A stretch of 64,000 nucleotides of DNA from Chloroflexota bacterium (GTDB lineage: Bacteria; Chloroflexota; UBA11872): the NCBI GenBank assembly GCA_028873795.1, contig JAPPNP010000043.1, positions 18,941 to 82,940 on the forward strand. Reading direction: 5' to 3'. Below are positions 10,227 through 34,511 of the stretch, in pieces (position 1 is the stretch's first letter; every line of letters begins with the position of its first letter). A model generated the notes under the pieces. The model ran no database searches, had not been told where the DNA came from, and saw nothing but the letters and a program-made list of their open reading frames with translations. Made by a program: the position numbers and the translations under genes.

Positions 10227-10649
10227 CTAGCCTTGCGGCTGCTCGCAGCTGATCATCCAGTTGATGCCGAACCTGTCGATGCAGGCGCCGAAGTAGTCGC
10301 CCCAGAACATGTCCTGCAGCGGCATCGTCACGGTGCCGCCTTCCGAGAGCCTGGCAAACAGGTCATCGGTCTCCTTGCGGCTCTGGGCGGCGTACGAGAT
10401 CGACATATTGCTGCTTGATGGGGCCGGTTCACCGAAGGTGGACGGCACGTCGCTGCCCATCAGCACGCCCGCGCCGACGGGAAGCGAGACGTGCATTATG
10501 TTGTTTCGTTCGTCGTCCGGGACCTGCATGTCGGCCGGACCCTCGCCAAACGTCTGCAGGACGGTGAAGTCGCCGCCAAAGGCCGCGCGGTAGAACTCGA
10601 ACGCCTCGCGGCAGTTGCCGTTGAAGTGGAGATATGGGCTCAGGCTCAT
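10227..10649 (-). CDS. VOC-superfamily protein, PhnB/YjdN-like
   Basis: A 140-aa glyoxalase/bleomycin-resistance fold protein. It opens with MSLSPYLHFNGNCREAFEFY, the usual start of PhnB-like (3-demethylubiquinone methyltransferase-domain) VOC proteins, and ends with the typical DRFGINWMI. The ATG at 10649 is preceded by GGAGG with a 4-nt gap, a strong site. It follows the response-regulator pair on the same strand but 105 bp away, so it may have its own transcript. Function within VOC is not predictable. Confidence 0.85.
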   Translation of the reverse strand: MSLSPYLHFNGNCREAFEFYRAAFGGDFTVLQTFGEGPADMQVPDDERNNIMHVSLPVGAGVLMGSDVPSTFGEPAPSSSNMSISYAAQSRKETDDLFARLSEGGTVTMPLQDMFWGDYFGACIDRFGINWMISCEQPQG

Positions 10650-10753: not shown

Positions 10754-11923
10754 CTAGGCGCCGTCCTCGGCGCGCCGCAGCACCAAACAGGTGATGTCGT
10801 CGGATTGCGGCGTGTCGCCCACGAACTCCCGCACGGCCTCGAACAGGGCATGCGTGGCCTGTTCGGAGTCCGTGGGAGGGTTCGCCTCGAACACTTGCTG
10901 AATCCGGTCGACCCCGAACTGCTCGCCGTCGCCGTTCATGGCTTCGGTGACGCCGTCGGTATACAGCACGATGGTGTCGCCCGGTTCGAGCTGCATGGTT
11001 TGGCTTGGAAAGTTGATGTCCGGCGCCACGCCCAGCGCCACGCCGCCGGTCAGTGACAGGAGTTCCGCTCCCCCTCCCGCTCGAACCAGCACCGGAGCGT
11101 CGTGCCCGCCGTTGGAATAGGTGAACATGCCGGTCGCCGGGTCGAAGATCGAGTAGAGCACGGTGACGAACATCATGGTTTCGTTTTCTTCGTAGAGCAG
11201 CTCGTTCACTTCGCGCAGGGCCTCGCCGGGATTCCCGAGGCCGATGGCCGCGCCCTTGAGCAGGGTGCGGCTGGACATCATGAACAGGGCGGCTGGAACG
11301 CCTTTGTCGGAAACGTCGGCTATCGCCAGTCCGACCTTGCCGTCTTCCAGACGAATCACGTCGTAGAAGTCGCCGCCGACGTTGCGCGCCGGCTCCATGT
11401 TGGCGAAGACCTGGTATTCGTCGCTCTTGGGAAAGGTCTTGGGCAGGATCGACTGCTGCGTGCTGCTCGCGACCTCGAGCTCGTTTTGCAGGGCCACCAG
11501 CGCATCGCGCGAGGAGAGCGCCGCCCGCCACTCCTCGAGGTGGTGGAGCGCCCGCTCCATGGTGATCTGCAGGTCTTCGAAGTCGAGCGGCTTGGTGACG
11601 AAGTCGAACGCGCCGCGGTTCATCGCCGTACGGATGTTCTGCATATCGCCGTAGGCGGAAACGACGATGCACCGAACATCGATGTCGGAGACATTCGGTA
11701 TCTGATCGAGCAGCGTGAGCCCATCCATCCGCGGCATGTTGATGTCCGTGATGACCATGTCGATATCGGGATTGGCGTTGAGCTTCTCCAGCGCCTCGAT
11801 CCCGTCTTGCGCGAATTCGAAGCTGTGCGTCCCCCGGCGGATTCGGCGCCGCATGCGTTGGGTAATCAGCGGCTGGAGGTCCGGCTCGTCGTCAACCACC
11901 AGGATGTTGTAGGGCCGCTTCAT
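10754..11923 (-). CDS. Response regulator with PP2C (RsbU/SpoIIE-type) phosphatase output
   Basis: A 389-aa two-domain signalling protein. The N-terminal receiver domain (about residues 1-125) has the acidic VVDDEPD, the phosphoacceptor Asp in MVITDINMPRMDG and the Lys in FVTKPLD. After a short helical linker, the PP2C domain shows GGDFYDV, IADVSDKGVPAALF, YTDGVTEAMN and DDITC metal-binding motifs. Such proteins dephosphorylate anti-anti-sigma factors in partner-switching stress systems. The ATG at 11923 matches the start of the neighbouring receiver and has AGGAA upstream; an ATG at 11944 would add seven residues. No kinase, anti-sigma factor or STAS protein lies nearby. Confidence 0.9.
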   Translation of the reverse strand: MKRPYNILVVDDEPDLQPLITQRMRRRIRRGTHSFEFAQDGIEALEKLNANPDIDMVITDINMPRMDGLTLLDQIPNVSDIDVRCIVVSAYGDMQNIRTAMNRGAFDFVTKPLDFEDLQITMERALHHLEEWRAALSSRDALVALQNELEVASSTQQSILPKTFPKSDEYQVFANMEPARNVGGDFYDVIRLEDGKVGLAIADVSDKGVPAALFMMSSRTLLKGAAIGLGNPGEALREVNELLYEENETMMFVTVLYSIFDPATGMFTYSNGGHDAPVLVRAGGGAELLSLTGGVALGVAPDINFPSQTMQLEPGDTIVLYTDGVTEAMNGDGEQFGVDRIQQVFEANPPTDSEQATHALFEAVREFVGDTPQSDDITCLVLRRAEDGA

Positions 11924-12697: not shown

Positions 12698-14740
12698 ATG
12701 CGAAACAGGTTGATGGCGCTGCTCGTCGCCGGGCTGCTCCTGTCGCTCGTGACGCCGGTGGGAGCCACCGACGACTGCGAATTCGTCCTCGGATTCGCCA
12801 CGCTCAACACGCTCATCGCCGCCGCCGAGGGGCCGGACGTCGTGGGCGACTGCCTGGAGAACGAGGGCTTCAACCCGGTGTTGGGCGAGGCGCACCAGCG
12901 GACCACCGGCGGGCTGATGGTGTGGCGCAAGGCCGACAACTGGACCAGCTTCACCGACGGGCAGCGCACGTGGATTCACGGGCCCGAGGGGCTGCAATCC
13001 CGCCTCAGCACCGAGCTGCTCGACTGGGAACGCATTGCCCAGCTCCGGCTGAATGCCTCGAGCTTCGAGTACGCCGTCGGCCAATCGGGCGGGTCGCTGC
13101 AGGTCGCGACCATCTCCGAGCCGCTCACCTTCAACCTGGCCCTATCCAACGACGCCTCGTCATCGGGGATTCTGGGCTACCTGTTCGACGGCCTCACGGA
13201 GACTTCCTGGCTTACGGATGAGGTCGAGCCGTCGCTGGCGGAGTCCTGGGAACATTCGGATGACGGACTGACCTGGACCTTCCACCTCCGCCGGGACGTC
13301 ACCTGGCACGACGGGCAACCCTTCACCGCCCACGACGTGGACTTCACGTTCAACCGGCTCATCTACAACGACGACATCGCCGCCAGCAGCCGCGCGTCGT
13401 TCGAATTCCGCGTCTTCGACGAGGAAACCGGCGCGTGGCGAGAGTCGCCAATGACGGTCACGGCGCTGGACGACTACACCGTGCAGTGCGTGCTGCCGGT
13501 GCCGTTCGCCACCTTCCTGCGCTCGATGGGAACGGCAATCTACCCGAAGCACATCCTCGAGCCGCACGTGGACGACGGCACGTTCGCCGACGTGTGGGAC
13601 ATCGACACCGACCCGGCCGAGATTATCGGCACTGGGCCGTTCACCATCGCGAGCTATATCCCGGGTGATGAGATCGTGCTGCGGCGCAACCCGAGCTACT
13701 GGCTCACGGACGCCGCCGGCAACCGCCTGCCGTACCTCGAGACGATCGAGTACACGATCGTCGAAGATCTCGAATCGGAGCTCGCCAGGTTCCTGGCCGG
13801 CGAGGCCGACATTCACGGCGTGTTGGGCGAAGAGTTCGCCGATCTCGAGCCGCTGCAAGCCGACGCCGACTTCACCATCCACCGGCGCGGTCCGGCGTTT
13901 GGGACGACGTTCCTGGGATTCAACATGAACCCCGGGACCAACCCCGACACCGGCGAGCCGTATCTCGCGCCCGAGAAGCTGAAGTGGTTCCAGAACGTGA
14001 AATTCCGCCAGGCCGTCGCGCACAGCATCGACAAGGACGCGATCATCAACGACGTGCTACGCGGGCTCGGCTATGCCCAGTGGTCGTCCGTCAGCCCGGC
14101 CGCGGGTGACTTCCACAACCCCGATGTCCGCCGCTATCCCTACGACGTCGCCCGGGCCAACGAGATCCTGGACGACCTTGGGTGGGTGGACACCGACGGC
14201 GACGGCATTCGCGAGGACGATGCCGGCCACCCAATCTCTTTCACGCTGGTGACCAACACCGGCAACACCGTGCGCGGCAGCGCCGGCGAGATCATCCACC
14301 AGGGCATGACCGCGATCGGCATCGACGCGGACTACCAGCTGATCGACTTCGGCGTGCTCGTGGGCCAGTTGGTCAGCACGTATGACTGGGAAGCCATGGT
14401 CATCGGCTTCACCGGCGGATCGGACCCGCACAGCGGCATCGTCTTCTGGCACACCTCCGAGGCGCTGCATCTGTGGCACCCGAACCAGCCGGCGCCGGCG
14501 ACGGCGTGGGAAGCGGAGATCGATGAGCTGTACATCAAGGCCAGCCAGGAACTCGACCGCGACCGGCGCGTGGCCTACTACCACCGCGCGCAGGCGATCG
14601 CCGCCGAGAACGTGCCGGTGATCTACACCACGCTCACCGAGCGGCTGACCGCGGTGCGCAACGTCTTCGGCAACACCACGCCCACGCTTTACGGGCTGTG
14701 GGACATCCGCTATCTCTACCGGACGGACCTGGCCGGCTAG
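12698..14740 (+). CDS. Peptide/nickel-type ABC solute-binding protein with extra N-terminal domain
   Basis: Secreted protein of 680 aa. A signal peptide covers residues 1-23, ending after GATD, with no lipobox. Residues ~27-111 form an extra domain with two Cys (27 and 52) and the aromatic block GGLMVWRKADNWTSFTDG. From ~131 the family 5 extracellular solute-binding domain follows (TFHLRRDVTWHDGQPFTAHD, GTGPF, FRQAVAHSIDKDAI). AGGAA precedes the ATG. No permease or ATPase gene is adjacent, so its partner must be elsewhere; the fused DppB-DppC permease at 31.3 kb is one conceivable candidate. The ligand may be an oligopeptide or another substrate. Confidence 0.9.
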   Translation: MRNRLMALLVAGLLLSLVTPVGATDDCEFVLGFATLNTLIAAAEGPDVVGDCLENEGFNPVLGEAHQRTTGGLMVWRKADNWTSFTDGQRTWIHGPEGLQSRLSTELLDWERIAQLRLNASSFEYAVGQSGGSLQVATISEPLTFNLALSNDASSSGILGYLFDGLTETSWLTDEVEPSLAESWEHSDDGLTWTFHLRRDVTWHDGQPFTAHDVDFTFNRLIYNDDIAASSRASFEFRVFDEETGAWRESPMTVTALDDYTVQCVLPVPFATFLRSMGTAIYPKHILEPHVDDGTFADVWDIDTDPAEIIGTGPFTIASYIPGDEIVLRRNPSYWLTDAAGNRLPYLETIEYTIVEDLESELARFLAGEADIHGVLGEEFADLEPLQADADFTIHRRGPAFGTTFLGFNMNPGTNPDTGEPYLAPEKLKWFQNVKFRQAVAHSIDKDAIINDVLRGLGYAQWSSVSPAAGDFHNPDVRRYPYDVARANEILDDLGWVDTDGDGIREDDAGHPISFTLVTNTGNTVRGSAGEIIHQGMTAIGIDADYQLIDFGVLVGQLVSTYDWEAMVIGFTGGSDPHSGIVFWHTSEALHLWHPNQPAPATAWEAEIDELYIKASQELDRDRRVAYYHRAQAIAAENVPVIYTTLTERLTAVRNVFGNTTPTLYGLWDIRYLYRTDLAG

Positions 14741-28457: not shown

Positions 28458-30589
28458 GCCACGCGGTTGCACCGTTCAAGAAGCGACTGCGGGACGCGCT
28501 GGAGTCGGACTCGCTGCCGATGGCGCTGGGCCGAGTGTTGCCGCTGCTGGACGGGCGGCGGCGCGAAGCGTTCGACGGGCGCGATTTTCCCGCCGAGCAG
28601 GCGCGGCTGGCGGCGATCCGCAAGCGCGACGTTGCCAATGGCCCGCGATTGCTGGAGCAGTTCACCGAAGTTGCGGAGAAGGCCGGCATGGTGGTGCATC
28701 CGCCGGCAGACGCGGCCGCGGTGCGCGAAACCGTGGCGGAGCTGCTGCGAAATGCGTCGGCGCGCATGGTGGTCAAGAGCAAGTCCATGGCCACCGAGGA
28801 AATCGGCTTGAACCAGGCGCTCGAAGCCGATGGCGTGGAAGTGGTCGAAACCGACCTGGGCGAGTTCCTGGTGCAGGTGGCGGATGAGCTGCCCTCGCAC
28901 ATCGTGGCCCCCGCGCTGCACATCACCCGTGAGCGGGCGGCCGAGCTAATTGGCAGCGTCACGGGACAAGACCTGCCGCCGGACCCCGACACTTTGGTGC
29001 GGGCGGCGCGCGAGTACCTGCGCGACAAGTTCATCGCCGCCGACGCCGGCATCACCGGCGCCAACGCCCTGGTGGCCAGCACCGGCAGCGTGATGCTGGT
29101 GAGCAACGAGGGCAACGCGCGGCTGTGCAGCAGCCTGCCGTCGCTGCACATCGTGGTCGCCGGCGTGGACAAGCTCGTCGCGACGATGACCGACGCGGCG
29201 GCCACGCTGGACATGCTGCCGGCGAGCGCCACGGGACAGACCATGTCCAGCTATGTTTCGTTCATCAGCGGACCCAGCCGCAGCGCCGACATCGAGATGT
29301 CCCTGTCGCTGGGCGTCCACGGACCGCGCGACGTGCACGTCGTATTGCTCGACAACGGGCGCGAGGCCATGCGGCGCGACCCAAAGTTCCAGACCGCGCT
29401 GCAGTGCGTGCGCTGCGGGGCATGCTCGAACGTCTGCCCGACCTATCAGCAGGTTGGCGGCCACGCCATGGGCCACATCTACACCGGTCCCATCGGCCTG
29501 TTGCTCACCTCGTTCCATCACGGCATGGAGAACGTGGCCGGGCCGCAGGCGCTCTGCGCGGGCTGCGGCGCCTGCGCCACGGTTTGCCCCGCCGGGATTC
29601 CGATTCCGGAGCTGATTCAAGAGGTGCGCACGCGGGCCGTGGCCGACGGCGCCGCGAAGAATCGGCTGAAGTCGCTGGCGCTGGGTGTCCTCGCCGACTC
29701 GAGGGCGTTCGAAAAGGGCCTGCGGACCTTTACCCGGATTCCCGGGGCGCAAGCGCTGGCGCGACGGTTGCCCGGATCGCCGCTGCGCGCGCGTCCCTTG
29801 CCACCGGTGTCGGCGCGTCCGTTCCGAGATCGCCTGCCGGCGCTTGCCGCCGATGACGGTGCGAAAGCGCAGGTGGCCTACTTTCCCGGCTGTCTCACCG
29901 ACTGGCTCGCGCCCGAAACCGGCGAGGCCGCCGTGAGCGTGCTGGGCGCCATCGCGCCCGTCGTCTTTGAGTCCTGCTGCGGGCTGCCGGCTATCAACGC
30001 CGGCTACCGCGCACCGGCCGTGCGCATGGCCAAGCAGACCATCGCGGCCATCGAGCGCTCCGGCGTTGAGACCGTCGTCAGCACGTCGACCAGTTGCCTG
30101 GGCGCCATTCGTGACGACTATCCACGGCTATTCGCTGACGAGCCCGAGTGGCGGGAGCGCGCGCTGGCTGCCGCCGGTCGCCTGGTCGATTTCGCCACCT
30201 ACGTCGAGGAGCACAGGCTCGCCGGCGTGCCTGCTCATCGTGCGCGCGGCGTGGTGACCGTGCACGACGCCTGCCAGTCGCGTCACGGGCTGGGCCTCGG
30301 AACTGGGACGCGCCGGCTACTCACGGCCGCAGGCTACACGGTGCGCGAGGCCCCCTACAGCGGCGAATGCTGCGGTTTTGGCGGGTCGTTCTCATTCGAC
30401 TTTCCCGAAGTGGCCGGACGCATGCGCCAACGCAAATTGGAAGCGTTTGCGTCGACCGGCGCCACGCTCGTGTGCGGCGACAATCCCGGCTGCCTGCTGC
30501 ACCTGGATTCGGACGGCGCGACGCCCGACGCCCCGCGCCCGGTGCATCTGGCCGAACTATTGCGAGACGCCGCCCCGGACGCTACGTGA
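28442..30589 (+). CDS. LutB-LutA fusion: LUD domain + two 4Fe-4S + two CCG domains
   Basis: A 715-aa fusion of two normally separate subunits of the LutABC/LldEFG L-lactate oxidation complex. Residues 1-~300 are a LUD (LutB) domain, including STGSVMLVSNEG. Next come two ferredoxin-type clusters (CVRCGACSNVCP and CAGCGACATVCP), then from ~470 the LutA-like half with two CCG motifs (CCGLPAINAGY, CCGFGGSF). The start is ATG at 28442, overlapping pyk by 16 bp, or GTG at 28454 in a GTGA overlap. LutC is not nearby. It probably oxidises lactate or another 2-hydroxyacid to feed electrons to the respiratory chain. Confidence 0.88.
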   Translation: MGGAVSHAVAPFKKRLRDALESDSLPMALGRVLPLLDGRRREAFDGRDFPAEQARLAAIRKRDVANGPRLLEQFTEVAEKAGMVVHPPADAAAVRETVAELLRNASARMVVKSKSMATEEIGLNQALEADGVEVVETDLGEFLVQVADELPSHIVAPALHITRERAAELIGSVTGQDLPPDPDTLVRAAREYLRDKFIAADAGITGANALVASTGSVMLVSNEGNARLCSSLPSLHIVVAGVDKLVATMTDAAATLDMLPASATGQTMSSYVSFISGPSRSADIEMSLSLGVHGPRDVHVVLLDNGREAMRRDPKFQTALQCVRCGACSNVCPTYQQVGGHAMGHIYTGPIGLLLTSFHHGMENVAGPQALCAGCGACATVCPAGIPIPELIQEVRTRAVADGAAKNRLKSLALGVLADSRAFEKGLRTFTRIPGAQALARRLPGSPLRARPLPPVSARPFRDRLPALAADDGAKAQVAYFPGCLTDWLAPETGEAAVSVLGAIAPVVFESCCGLPAINAGYRAPAVRMAKQTIAAIERSGVETVVSTSTSCLGAIRDDYPRLFADEPEWRERALAAAGRLVDFATYVEEHRLAGVPAHRARGVVTVHDACQSRHGLGLGTGTRRLLTAAGYTVREAPYSGECCGFGGSFSFDFPEVAGRMRQRKLEAFASTGATLVCGDNPGCLLHLDSDGATPDAPRPVHLAELLRDAAPDAT

Positions 30590-31176
30590 CTTCCGACCGC
30601 CTCCAGCGTCAGCTCGCCTTCATCGTCGAGATCGACAAGGCCAAGTCCATCCTCCGCAACTCGCTGGTGATCGAAGAGCGGCGGCGCGAGAACGACGCGG
30701 AGCACGCCTGGCACCTGGCGGTGATGGCCCGGCTGCTTGCCGAGTACGCGCGCGTGGAGATCGATGTCGATCGGGTAATCGAGATGCTGCTGGTCCACGA
30801 CCTGGTGGAGATCGACGCCGGCGACACCTTCATCTACGACACCGCCGCCCGCGAACGGCAAGCCGAGAAAGAGCGTGCGGCGGCCGACCGTATCTTCGGC
30901 CTGCTGCCGTCCGACCAGGCGGACGCGTTGCGCGCGTCCTGGGAAGAGTTCGAGGCGCGGCAGACGCCCGAGGCAAAGTTCGCCTTCGCGCTGGACCGCC
31001 TGCAGCCGCTGCTACTCAACTTTCACACCCAGGGCCACGCCTGGCGCAAGCACGGCGTGCGCCGCGCGCAGGTCACGGCCGTCAACGCCACGATCGCCGA
31101 CGGCGCGCCGGAGCTTTGGGACTACGCACGGGGCCTTATCGAGGAGGCCGTGAGGCGAGGCCATCTGTCGGAGTAG
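30586..31176 (+). CDS. HD-domain phosphohydrolase (YfbR/5'-nucleotidase-like)
   Basis: A 196-aa HD-superfamily hydrolase. The metal-binding residues appear as His in NDAEHAWHLAVMA and the HD pair in LLVHDLVEIDAGD, with the conserved Asp in FALDRLQPLL. This layout matches YfbR-type 5'-deoxynucleotidases (COG1896). The start is GTG at 30586, overlapping the stop of the upstream gene in GTGA. It is the last gene of the pyk-lut operon. A nucleotide monophosphate substrate is likely but not demonstrated. Confidence 0.85.
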   Translation: MTSDRLQRQLAFIVEIDKAKSILRNSLVIEERRRENDAEHAWHLAVMARLLAEYARVEIDVDRVIEMLLVHDLVEIDAGDTFIYDTAARERQAEKERAAADRIFGLLPSDQADALRASWEEFEARQTPEAKFAFALDRLQPLLLNFHTQGHAWRKHGVRRAQVTAVNATIADGAPELWDYARGLIEEAVRRGHLSE

Positions 31177-31331
31177 TTACTTCCCGCGACCATTGCACCA
31201 ATCGGCGAGCGTTGCGAGGGGAACACGCGGGGGCTTGCATTCACAAGAACCATCCGTGTACGCTCGCCGATATATATGACTCGACCGACGCTTTCTGATA
31301 CCTATTAGCCGCATGGATTGAGCCTTAGTCA

Positions 31332-33275
31332 ATGATTAGATTTACCGCTCGCCAAGTATTCATTGCAGTCCAGCTATTCCTGGGGATTTCGATAGTCATT
31401 TTCATCGTGATCAGCCTGTATCCCGGCGACCCAATTGCGAATCTCTTCGGCCCCTACGGCCAAGCATGGAGCAATGGGCAGGACACCGCCGACCTACAAG
31501 CACGCTTCAGCGGCGACACTCCCGGGCCAGTGCGGTATCTGTTTTGGATGAAGGAGGTGTTGACCGGGAACCTGGGCCACGTCGGTCAGTGGGCAAGTCC
31601 AGTTGGGGACGTAGTCCGCGAGGCGCTTCCAATCACGCTCGGGCTCGTCGCCGTCTCCCTCGCCGTCGCCTTGATCGGCGGAAGTGTATTCGCGCTGATC
31701 TTGACCCTATGGCCGGAGTCAATTTCGAGCCGTTTCCTGAGTGCGATTCCCATGTTCCTTGCTTCGGTCCCGACGGCATTCCTGACCATTTGGGGAATCT
31801 ACCTGTTTGCCGTTCGGCTCGGATGGCTGCCGGCACTTGGGCTCTGGACGCCCGGCGGTGAGGAGACGCTCAATCTCGATCTCGTACGCCACGCCATCCT
31901 GCCGACCGTGGTCTTGGCTCTGCCCTTCATCGCCATCTACATGCGCTACGCGCAGCAAGCGGTGTTGAACGCGACCGAGGCAGACCCGGCGGGACCAGGA
32001 GCCGAAGAGGTCTCGGCCGGCGAGATGGCCGTGCGCTCGCTTTCCCTGCTGCCGACCGTCGGTGTGCCGTTGCTGAGAAACCTCAGCCAATCCCTGGCGC
32101 CCCTCATGGGCAGCGCGTTGGTAGTCGAGTCGCTGCTGTCCTTGGGCGGCTTGGGGCACGTGGCGTACCGGTCGCTGTTTCAGCGCGAATACCCGGTGGT
32201 GACGGCGGCCATCCTCGTCGGTACGGTCGCGGTGATTGCGGCACGGCTGCTGATCGACGTGATTTGCGGTTGGCTCGACTCGGCCATTCGCCAATCCGCC
32301 GAGAGGTCAACGCCAACGCCCGGCGAGCCGGGCACGGCCGGCCCCGACGCCGCTGCGCGCCAGCTCGGCCCGCCGCTGGAACTGATCGACCGTCCGCTCG
32401 AGCACCGTCCATGGAATACCGCGCGACGCCGCTTCCGGGCACAGTGGCCGGCCATGGCCGGGCTTGTCGTGCTGCTTGCATTCCTTGCCCTTGCGATTCT
32501 GGGGCCGTTCGTGGCCCCCTACGAACCGCACGAAGTGGTCGCCTTGCGGTCGATTGGTGAATCGAGCGCTTCGCCTTGGCTTGGGACCGACAGCTTTGGT
32601 CGAGATGTCTTCAGCCTGCTTCTGCACGGAGCCCGCGGGTCAGTAGGCGTGGGCGCGGTGGCCGTGGTCATCAGCCTCGTGATCGGCTTGGCCGTCGGTG
32701 TGTCCTCGGCCAGGCTGGGCGGTCTGGTCGACGGAGTCCTCATGCGGATTACGGATGTCGTCATGACCGTCCCCGCACTCTTCCTCATGATGTTCCTCGT
32801 GATTCCGCTTCTATTTGGAGTGGCCGGACCAGGAAGCGTGGTGGCCGTAGCGATTGGGATTGTCAGCTGGCCCGGATTTGCCAGACTCGTCCGGCGCCAA
32901 GTCCTCCTCCAGCGTCAAGCGGGTGCTGCCTCTGATTCAGTGGGACCGGAGAGTCGAATGCTCGGCAACCTGGCGGGCCCGTTGATGGTGGCCGTCGCCT
33001 ACGGTTTCGCCGCGGCGCTCTTGGCAGAAGCCGCGTTGAGCTTCCTGGGCCTTGGCAGCTCGATCCCACCAATGACCTGGGGACAGATGCTCGGGCAATC
33101 GCGAGGTCTCGCGTTCTTGACTACTGCACCAGGGGTGATACCCACGATCCTGATCGTTCTCTCGGTCTTGTCGGCTCATCTCGTCGGCGGCGGTCTTCGA
33201 CATGCCTTTGCGACGGGGACTGCGGACCCAGACGCGGCCGAGTCCGGCGACGACCAGGCGGCACTCGACCTTTAA
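31332..33275 (+). CDS. DppB-DppC fusion ABC permease with degenerate coupling loops
   Basis: A 647-aa membrane protein joining two peptide-type permeases. Residues 1-~320 are DppB-like (SLYPGDP near 28; ALPITLGLVAVSL; PLMGSALVVESLLSLGGLG), then a ~50-residue Pro/Gly-rich linker. Residues ~370-630 are DppC-like (AILGPFVAPYEPHEV, WLGTDSFGRDVFS, LLAEAALSFLGLG). The cytoplasmic EAA loops that contact the ATPase are poorly conserved in both halves (about 205-245 and 519-560). No ATPase or solute-binding gene is adjacent. The first ~120 bp and the leader are markedly more AT-rich than neighbours, and no ribosome site is evident. Confidence 0.8.
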   Translation: MIRFTARQVFIAVQLFLGISIVIFIVISLYPGDPIANLFGPYGQAWSNGQDTADLQARFSGDTPGPVRYLFWMKEVLTGNLGHVGQWASPVGDVVREALPITLGLVAVSLAVALIGGSVFALILTLWPESISSRFLSAIPMFLASVPTAFLTIWGIYLFAVRLGWLPALGLWTPGGEETLNLDLVRHAILPTVVLALPFIAIYMRYAQQAVLNATEADPAGPGAEEVSAGEMAVRSLSLLPTVGVPLLRNLSQSLAPLMGSALVVESLLSLGGLGHVAYRSLFQREYPVVTAAILVGTVAVIAARLLIDVICGWLDSAIRQSAERSTPTPGEPGTAGPDAAARQLGPPLELIDRPLEHRPWNTARRRFRAQWPAMAGLVVLLAFLALAILGPFVAPYEPHEVVALRSIGESSASPWLGTDSFGRDVFSLLLHGARGSVGVGAVAVVISLVIGLAVGVSSARLGGLVDGVLMRITDVVMTVPALFLMMFLVIPLLFGVAGPGSVVAVAIGIVSWPGFARLVRRQVLLQRQAGAASDSVGPESRMLGNLAGPLMVAVAYGFAAALLAEAALSFLGLGSSIPPMTWGQMLGQSRGLAFLTTAPGVIPTILIVLSVLSAHLVGGGLRHAFATGTADPDAAESGDDQAALDL

Positions 33276-33322: not shown

Positions 33323-34390
33323 CTAGCCCGGTCCCTCGGCAATGCGCTCCACGTGCCAGGGGTGGCGATTGGCGTAGTAGGTTTTCGACTCGTGGAAAGC
33401 GCGGGCGGGCGGATCGAGTACCAGCTCGTACAAGCACACGTCGACCCAGGCCTCCCCGTCGCGGATGCGGTTTGGCAGGCGCGCCGCCTCGGTGAAGCCG
33501 GCGGCGCGTGCGATGGCTGCGAGGTCGTCGTCCGGGGCGGCGATTGGGAACTCGAGCACGCTCACGCCGATCGCGCCGGCCCGGTCGGCCGCGGCGCGCA
33601 GCAAACTCACAGCATGCTCCATGTAGGCCGGTGCCACGCGCAATGAGAGCGTGGCCACGTGCTGTTGCGGGAACGTGTCGCGGCGCACGAAGACCGCCTG
33701 CCCGACCACGCGGTTCTTCGGCGTTGCCAGAACCAGCATGGCGCCCTGCGCATTCGCGACGCGGAGCTTCAGACGGGCGAAGTGGTATTCGTAGCGCGTG
33801 TCGCGGAGGCAGTCGTCCAGGACTTCCTTGAGCAGCCAGACCGGCTCTCGCATGTTGTAGAGAATGGCCGCGCGCGGCAGATCGCCCCAGACGGCGTCCC
33901 GCACCACCGGCTCGCCGTCGAACGCCAGATACGTCGCGTCGAACTCGTCCGCGTCCACCACCGAATACCGCATGCCGTCGCCGACGCGGTACCAGAACCC
34001 GTGGTTCTCATACAGGTGGCCGGCGACCGGATTGGTGGTGCAGAGATGGAGCGCCTGACCGCCATTTGCCACGAACTCGCGCAGCATGCGCGACATGAGC
34101 GCGTCGGCCACGCCCTTGCGGCGGTGCCGGTCGTCGGTCGCCACGAACTCCACGATGCCTACGTCGCGCGTGTCGGTGGGGACGTAGTAGCCCAGCGACC
34201 CGGCGTATTCACCGTCGATGGTTCCCACGAAGTGCGGCGTGTAAAGCGTCTCGGCCAACGCCCCGCTGAACAGGTCGTCTTGCAGCGGATCCCAGGTGCG
34301 GACGCGGCCGCCGAACGTGTCCATGGGCGGGAGGAGACGCTCGATCTGCATGCGCTCGCCGTTCCGCAGCGTGACGCGTTCGGGGGCCAT
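33323..34390 (-). CDS. Double-domain GNAT acetyltransferase
   Basis: A 355-aa protein with two tandem GNAT folds. The first carries the acetyl-CoA loop in DRHRRKGVADALMSRML and a LCTTNPVAGHLYENHGFW C-terminal part. The second, from about residue 180, is more diverged, with its core around VVGQAVFVRRDTF. The start at 34390 fits the domain; a longer extension to 34492 would be low-complexity and has no support. It is divergent from the cyclase gene. The substrate is unknown. Confidence 0.8.
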   Translation of the reverse strand: MAPERVTLRNGERMQIERLLPPMDTFGGRVRTWDPLQDDLFSGALAETLYTPHFVGTIDGEYAGSLGYYVPTDTRDVGIVEFVATDDRHRRKGVADALMSRMLREFVANGGQALHLCTTNPVAGHLYENHGFWYRVGDGMRYSVVDADEFDATYLAFDGEPVVRDAVWGDLPRAAILYNMREPVWLLKEVLDDCLRDTRYEYHFARLKLRVANAQGAMLVLATPKNRVVGQAVFVRRDTFPQQHVATLSLRVAPAYMEHAVSLLRAAADRAGAIGVSVLEFPIAAPDDDLAAIARAAGFTEAARLPNRIRDGEAWVDVCLYELVLDPPARAFHESKTYYANRHPWHVERIAEGPG

Positions 34391-34511
34391 GGCATCGCTC
34401 GGCGTGGGCGGACGCGAGATTCTACGTGTGGCCGGTGGTCTGGAAGCTGCGCGGTGCGCCACTATGGCGGGAATCGGACCCGTTTTCGACACGCCCCCGA
34501 AGGACTCAGCA

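Follow-up and report, generated by a model that had tools for sequence, protein, structure and literature searches.

A fused OppB–OppC-type permease that has lost both EAA motifs in a genus of Chloroflexota

The fused gene, its slot and its relatives

The window, which is the whole stretch of 64,000 nucleotides analysed here, comes from a Chloroflexota assembly of 3.18 Mb and contains a single open reading frame for a membrane protein of 647 amino acids (Table 1). As a preliminary description of this DNA had claimed, the protein joins a DppB- and a DppC-type permease in one chain. Its two halves are homologous to OppB/DppB and OppC/DppC, respectively. Pfam recognizes BPD_transp_1 twice, OppC_N and a weak BPD_transp_1_N, and the top NCBIfam matches are Opp-type B and Opp-type C models, all scoring far below their equivalog cut-offs (residue ranges in Table 1). 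The conserved core stretches quoted in the preliminary description, TDSFGRDVFS and LLAEAALSFLGLG, are both found in the protein. In alignments, the 3′ part of the linker (GPPLELIDRPLEHRPWNTARRRF) corresponds to the N-terminal segment of split OppC-type proteins of the same genome (C73-C and C78-C), which gives the fusion the appearance of a B frame that was read on into the next C gene. We can eliminate a frameshift or an assembly error as the origin of this frame, since the intact reading frame recurs in three independent assemblies for the orthologous copies (a) and in two for a paralogue (b).

The ribosome-binding site is weak, as had been pointed out, but the start codon is nevertheless backed by the orthologues and by alignment to canonical N-termini. 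The first 300 nt of the gene contain 57% GC vs 64% for the whole gene, and this AT-richer start, also remarked on before, is common to the orthologues. Upstream of the start, a 24-nt block remains constant while its surroundings vary among the a orthologues, and may represent a regulatory element. A scan of the leader returned no consensus sigma-70 match, and the promoter and terminator scans gave nothing that exceeded shuffled sequences.

Table 1. Positions in the window of the fused permease gene, its parts and the genes that bound its slot
Feature	Position	Strand	Basis
Fused OppB/DppB–OppC/DppC-type permease gene	31332..33275	+	ORF, Pfam/NCBIfam, intact orthologues
B half, OppB/DppB type, residues 1–320	31332..32291	+	NCBIfam Opp2B 12–320, Opp4B 1–320; tree
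Periplasmic segment after TM1, residues 30–92	31419..31607	+	dN/dS 0.16, 0.04; counterpart of DppB scoop/alpha-3
Former coupling loop 1, residues 207–242	31950..32057	+	EAA motif lost (alignment); dN/dS 1.03; pLDDT <50 at 216–235
Inter-half linker, residues 316–366	32277..32429	+	C73-C/C78-C alignment; pLDDT <50 at 323–357
C half, OppC/DppC type, residues 359–627	32406..33212	+	OppC_N 360–401, BPD_transp_1 452–615, Opp4C 360–627
Former coupling loop 2, residues 523–547	32898..32972	+	Shortened, without EAA motif (alignment); dN/dS 0.70; pLDDT <50 at 533–539
C-terminal tail, unconserved, residues 627–647	33210..33272	+	dN/dS 0.85; 0% identity vs b copies
24-nt block, candidate promoter region, ~70 nt upstream of start	31243..31266	+	Identical in three a orthologues
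Slot left boundary, HD-domain (YfbR-like) gene, outside the system	30589..31176	+	Pfam HD_3; same flank in six species
Slot right boundary, GNAT acetyltransferase gene, outside the system	33323..34441	-	Pfam Acetyltransf_1; same flank in six species

Our sample of the genus comprises six genomes, the window's own (G000) and G001–G005. The fused gene is present in four of the six species and missing from G004 and G005. Full-length a orthologues in G001 and G002 are 87% and 77% identical to the window protein, and the intact paralogue b (~49% identical) is carried by G002 and G003. All fused copies occupy one slot, between the HD-domain gene and the GNAT gene. In G005 (L074 8442–8496) and G004 (L075 8208–8262) this slot is empty: the HD–GNAT gap measures only 54 bp and holds no detectable remnant of a permease. 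The a and b genes of G002 form a tandem, and between them lies a relic of the HD gene's 3′ terminus (L061 9954–10079), into which the C-terminal tail of a extends. This relic indicates that the duplication took place in situ. The leader of b in G003 resembles the stretch that separates a from b in G002. Since dS between a and b (~1.1–1.3) lies above that among a copies (0.2–0.4), the duplication is an old event when measured against these species, and this age suggests that the absence from G004 and G005 is due to loss. The tree of the flanking genes is compatible with either loss or gain, and a gain in the other species would be the possible alternative. Because two species live without the gene, it is dispensable.

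In the trees of both halves, the fused proteins form a single clade (100/100). In the B-half tree its sister group is the split pair encoded on contig C73 (98/96); in the C-half tree it groups with C73 and C78, with an unsettled branching order. The C73 pair is also the closest relative by identity (40% for B, 44% for C). A search for further fused homologues, as the preliminary description had recommended, yielded congeneric proteins only (G001, G002 and G003). Across 301 sampled Chloroflexota genomes every full-length match from beyond the genus is split by stops, and a scan of GTDB contigs returned congeneric records and split relatives. The EAA loops are kept in the four best matches from outside the genus and in the class-level pairs inspected. 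Neither among the fused copies of the genus nor in the 301 genomes did we find a fused homologue with intact EAA loops next to DppD/F genes. The papers searched contain no description of a fused DppB–DppC protein or of a permease without a coupling helix.

By Pfam, the genes that flank the fused gene encode PK, LUD/ferredoxin, HD, GNAT and cyclase proteins, and no ATPase, solute-binding protein or regulator adjoins it. The lack of an adjoining ATPase or solute-binding gene had been noted before and stands as an observation, but not as an argument: the canonical pairs C73 and C78 are also without a neighbouring ATPase in the stretches read, and many other permeases of the genome lie dispersed and apart from ATPases, so a missing neighbour is uninformative for the fused gene. 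A solute-binding gene does lie near the C73 pair. The genome contains 18 matches to ATPases of the OppD/F type by their C-terminal domain (oligo_HPY) and 22 family-5 solute-binding matches, all scattered. Permease pairs on C73 (L031), C78 (L032) and C35 (L035) have no neighbouring ATPase and OppD/F pairs are found apart (C36, C59), which suggests that ATPases are widely shared among the permeases of this genome. Judged by eye from the translations, the surroundings of C78 include BNR-repeat-like, rhamnosidase-like and sulfatase-like genes. The genome's best-scoring family-5 match is an orphan SBP_bac_5 gene in the window (12698–14740, + strand) without a neighbouring permease. A role of this gene as a co-inherited partner is unsupported: copies of about 90–93% identity occur in all six species, and it does not track the fused gene.

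Coupling loops, selection and predicted structure

In E. coli Dpp, every contact between permease and ATPase is made by way of the coupling helix between TM4 and TM5 (PMC12136057). In both halves of the fused protein, alignment confirms the earlier claim that the EAA motif expected at this place is gone, and the two fragments LSLLP and GAASDSVG remain as quoted. A simple EAA-core pattern is matched by 24 of 25 other permease ORFs of the same family in this genome (the exception is L017:438–1403), but by neither half of any of the five fused proteins. Both loops vary in length and sequence among close fused orthologues. The a and b copies share derived loop residues (AExxS-E in loop 1 and A-DS in loop 2; the C73 counterparts are AKGLSE and the EAA segment), and therefore the motif loss most likely predates the duplication.

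Codon-level comparison between relatives, another suggested check, did not give a gene-wide value near 1. Overall dN/dS (Nei–Gojobori) is 0.34 for window–G001, 0.34 for window–G002a and 0.31 for G002b–G003b. Maximum likelihood estimates are similar (0.27–0.37), and a–b comparisons give ~0.3. The differences show an excess at third positions, and none of the five fused copies contains a stop or a frameshift. When the window–G002a differences were placed randomly, a mean of 5.2 stops resulted, and zero stops occurred in 0.45% of trials. Constraint is nevertheless weaker than in canonical permeases (0.33 vs about 0.1), and GC3 is 0.74 and 0.62 vs 0.85–0.9 in neighbour genes.

Purifying selection acts mainly on the membrane helices and on the periplasmic side of the protein, whereas in the window lineage the coupling loops drift. 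Sorted by topology, dN/dS among a orthologues is 0.18 for the periplasm, 0.24 for TM segments, 0.87 for the coupling loops and 0.68 for linker and tail, and the other cytoplasmic stretches, when pooled, show no stronger constraint. The corresponding values for the split C73 control are 0.09, 0.07, 0.02 and 0.38. Hence, the coupling loop is the most conserved part in C73, but among the fastest in the fused a orthologues. Between the window and G001 the loops reach a dN/dS of 1.13, and dN is higher in the loops than in the core (permutation p = 0.0005). The periplasmic counterparts of scoop and alpha-3, the former a region with an assigned role in DppB (PMC12136057), are among the most constrained parts (Table 1). 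At the same place, in the scoop region after TM1, b copies carry ~25 extra residues that a copies do not have (L062 ~11308–11395, - strand; L061 ~10472–10559, + strand). In the b pair (G002b–G003b) the loops do not evolve faster than the core; with few changes, their dN/dS is 0.31, and the b loops may be under some constraint.

To predict the structure we used AlphaFold2 with a shallow alignment of 11 rows, and supplied the identical rows for a canonical pair as control, the two genes of which were read through the intervening stop for prediction purposes only. The model of the fused protein (pTM 0.71, mean pLDDT 67.8) falls below a pLDDT of 50 in parts of both former loops and in the linker (Table 1), and also in the tail. 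It contains no separate coupling helices, and the pLDDT at these places is about 41–51. The control model (pTM 0.78) has distinct helices at residues 214–221 and 521–528 with a pLDDT of about 77–83. In the fused model the helices of TM4 and TM5 reach into the loop region. By Foldseek, this model matches the DppB/OppB and DppC/OppC chains of solved complexes (TMt 0.67–0.85). Within the limits of a shallow alignment, the prediction supports the loss of the coupling helices, although it does not decide the matter.

Possible functions of the fused permease

The fused protein is probably, if by no wide measure, a functional, genus-restricted permease of Opp/Dpp descent that is uncoupled from OppD/OppF and kept for a function in the membrane and at its periplasmic face. 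The uncoupling from the usual ATPase, which had been surmised in the preliminary description of a former transporter, is well supported by the sequence, by the restriction of selection to membrane and periplasmic parts, and by the structure prediction with its control. Of the roles offered there, a channel, a sensor or a permease for an unusual ATPase may each apply. According to this proposal, a split B–C gene pair would have been fused into a single chain, the cytoplasmic coupling helix that docks OppD/OppF would have been lost from both halves, and tandem duplication of the gene would have followed. ATP hydrolysis would then no longer be coupled to the fused permease. Since the loss seems to precede a duplication with an a–b dS of ~1.1–1.3, the uncoupled state appears to have persisted. 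On the periplasmic side the protein might still meet a solute-binding protein and provide a cavity, the released solute perhaps equilibrating across the membrane; on another branch of the proposal, it could bind the solute-binding protein as a receptor, or as a dock that titrates it. We suggest only tentatively that selection has remade the permease in this manner as a facilitator or receptor that depends on a binding protein but not on ATP, and that keeps the membrane and periplasmic parts of the mechanism but has discarded its cytoplasmic coupling machinery.

An alternative that seems unlikely is that an OppD/OppF-type ATPase continues to dock on the fused protein by way of a diverged surface, formed for instance by other cytoplasmic loops or by remnants around TM4 and TM5. 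With 18 oligo_HPY matches in the genome, some of them in pairs with no permease close by (C36, C59), and with canonical permeases that are likewise without a neighbouring ATPase, potential partners exist. The absence of excess loop change in b copies and the extension of the modelled TM4 and TM5 helices into the loop region are also consistent with such contact. However, both loops are motif-less, variable among close orthologues and near-neutral in the a lineage, the other cytoplasmic stretches together are not more constrained, and no coupling helix is modelled where the control has one. The preliminary description had also considered a decaying gene kept in frame. Constraint below that of canonical permeases, lower GC3, absence from two species and the survival of a single tandem copy in three others could reflect selection relaxed after the loss of coupling, with the frame open by chance. 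This reading is already largely refuted, and we regard it as improbable: the copies are intact, the tandem duplicate is old, dN/dS is ~0.33 with a third-position excess, the stop-free outcome was rare among random trials, and the degeneracy is older than an a–b split with a dS >1 across which dN/dS is ~0.3.

Finally, as one of the two branches of the main proposal, a dead permease could act as a regulatory or receptor protein that binds the solute-binding protein in its loaded state and serves to report or titrate it, without passage of solute. The lost coupling and a periplasmic face that is the most constrained part would suit this role, which we nonetheless hold to be doubtful, given that the protein has no added signalling domain, that linker and tail, on the cytoplasmic side, show little conservation, that no regulator adjoins the gene, and that the constraint on the TM core fits a pore equally well.

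Comparison with known systems

The fused protein resembles DppB–DppC and OppB–OppC (E. coli 8z1v and 8z21; M. tuberculosis Opp/Dpp) in sequence family, fold, membrane helices and scoop region, and has the motifs GTDxxGRD and SFLGLG in common with them. Unlike these systems it is one chain, has lost both EAA helices, and comes without an adjoining gene for an ATPase or a binding protein. The split C73 pair, with orthologues in all six species, differs from it in having two genes, a solute-binding gene nearby and intact EAA loops that are very strongly constrained (dN/dS 0.02 for the loops).

FhuB-type permeases also carry two permease halves per chain, but belong to a different type of ABC importer and are still served by an ATPase, FhuC. 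The likeness lies in the pseudo-dimer of permease halves. The S components BioY and BtuM of ECF transporters are unrelated in fold and family to Opp/Dpp permeases. As solitary proteins they mediate uptake without an ATPase module (PMC6072759), and thus set a precedent for an ABC-related membrane subunit that works without its ATPase; function has been shown in those cases, whereas for the fused protein we infer it.

Type I ABC importers are regarded as dependent on movements that are driven by ATP and relayed through coupling helices. The present locus points to a route by which a permease may be freed from its motor, namely fusion of B and C with loss of both coupling loops and tandem duplication afterwards, and the different strengths of selection on its cytoplasmic loops and its periplasmic face can be measured inside one genus. 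A permease under selection that lacks both helices would provide a direct probe of the membrane and binding-protein parts alone, much as BioY and BtuM do for ECF transporters.
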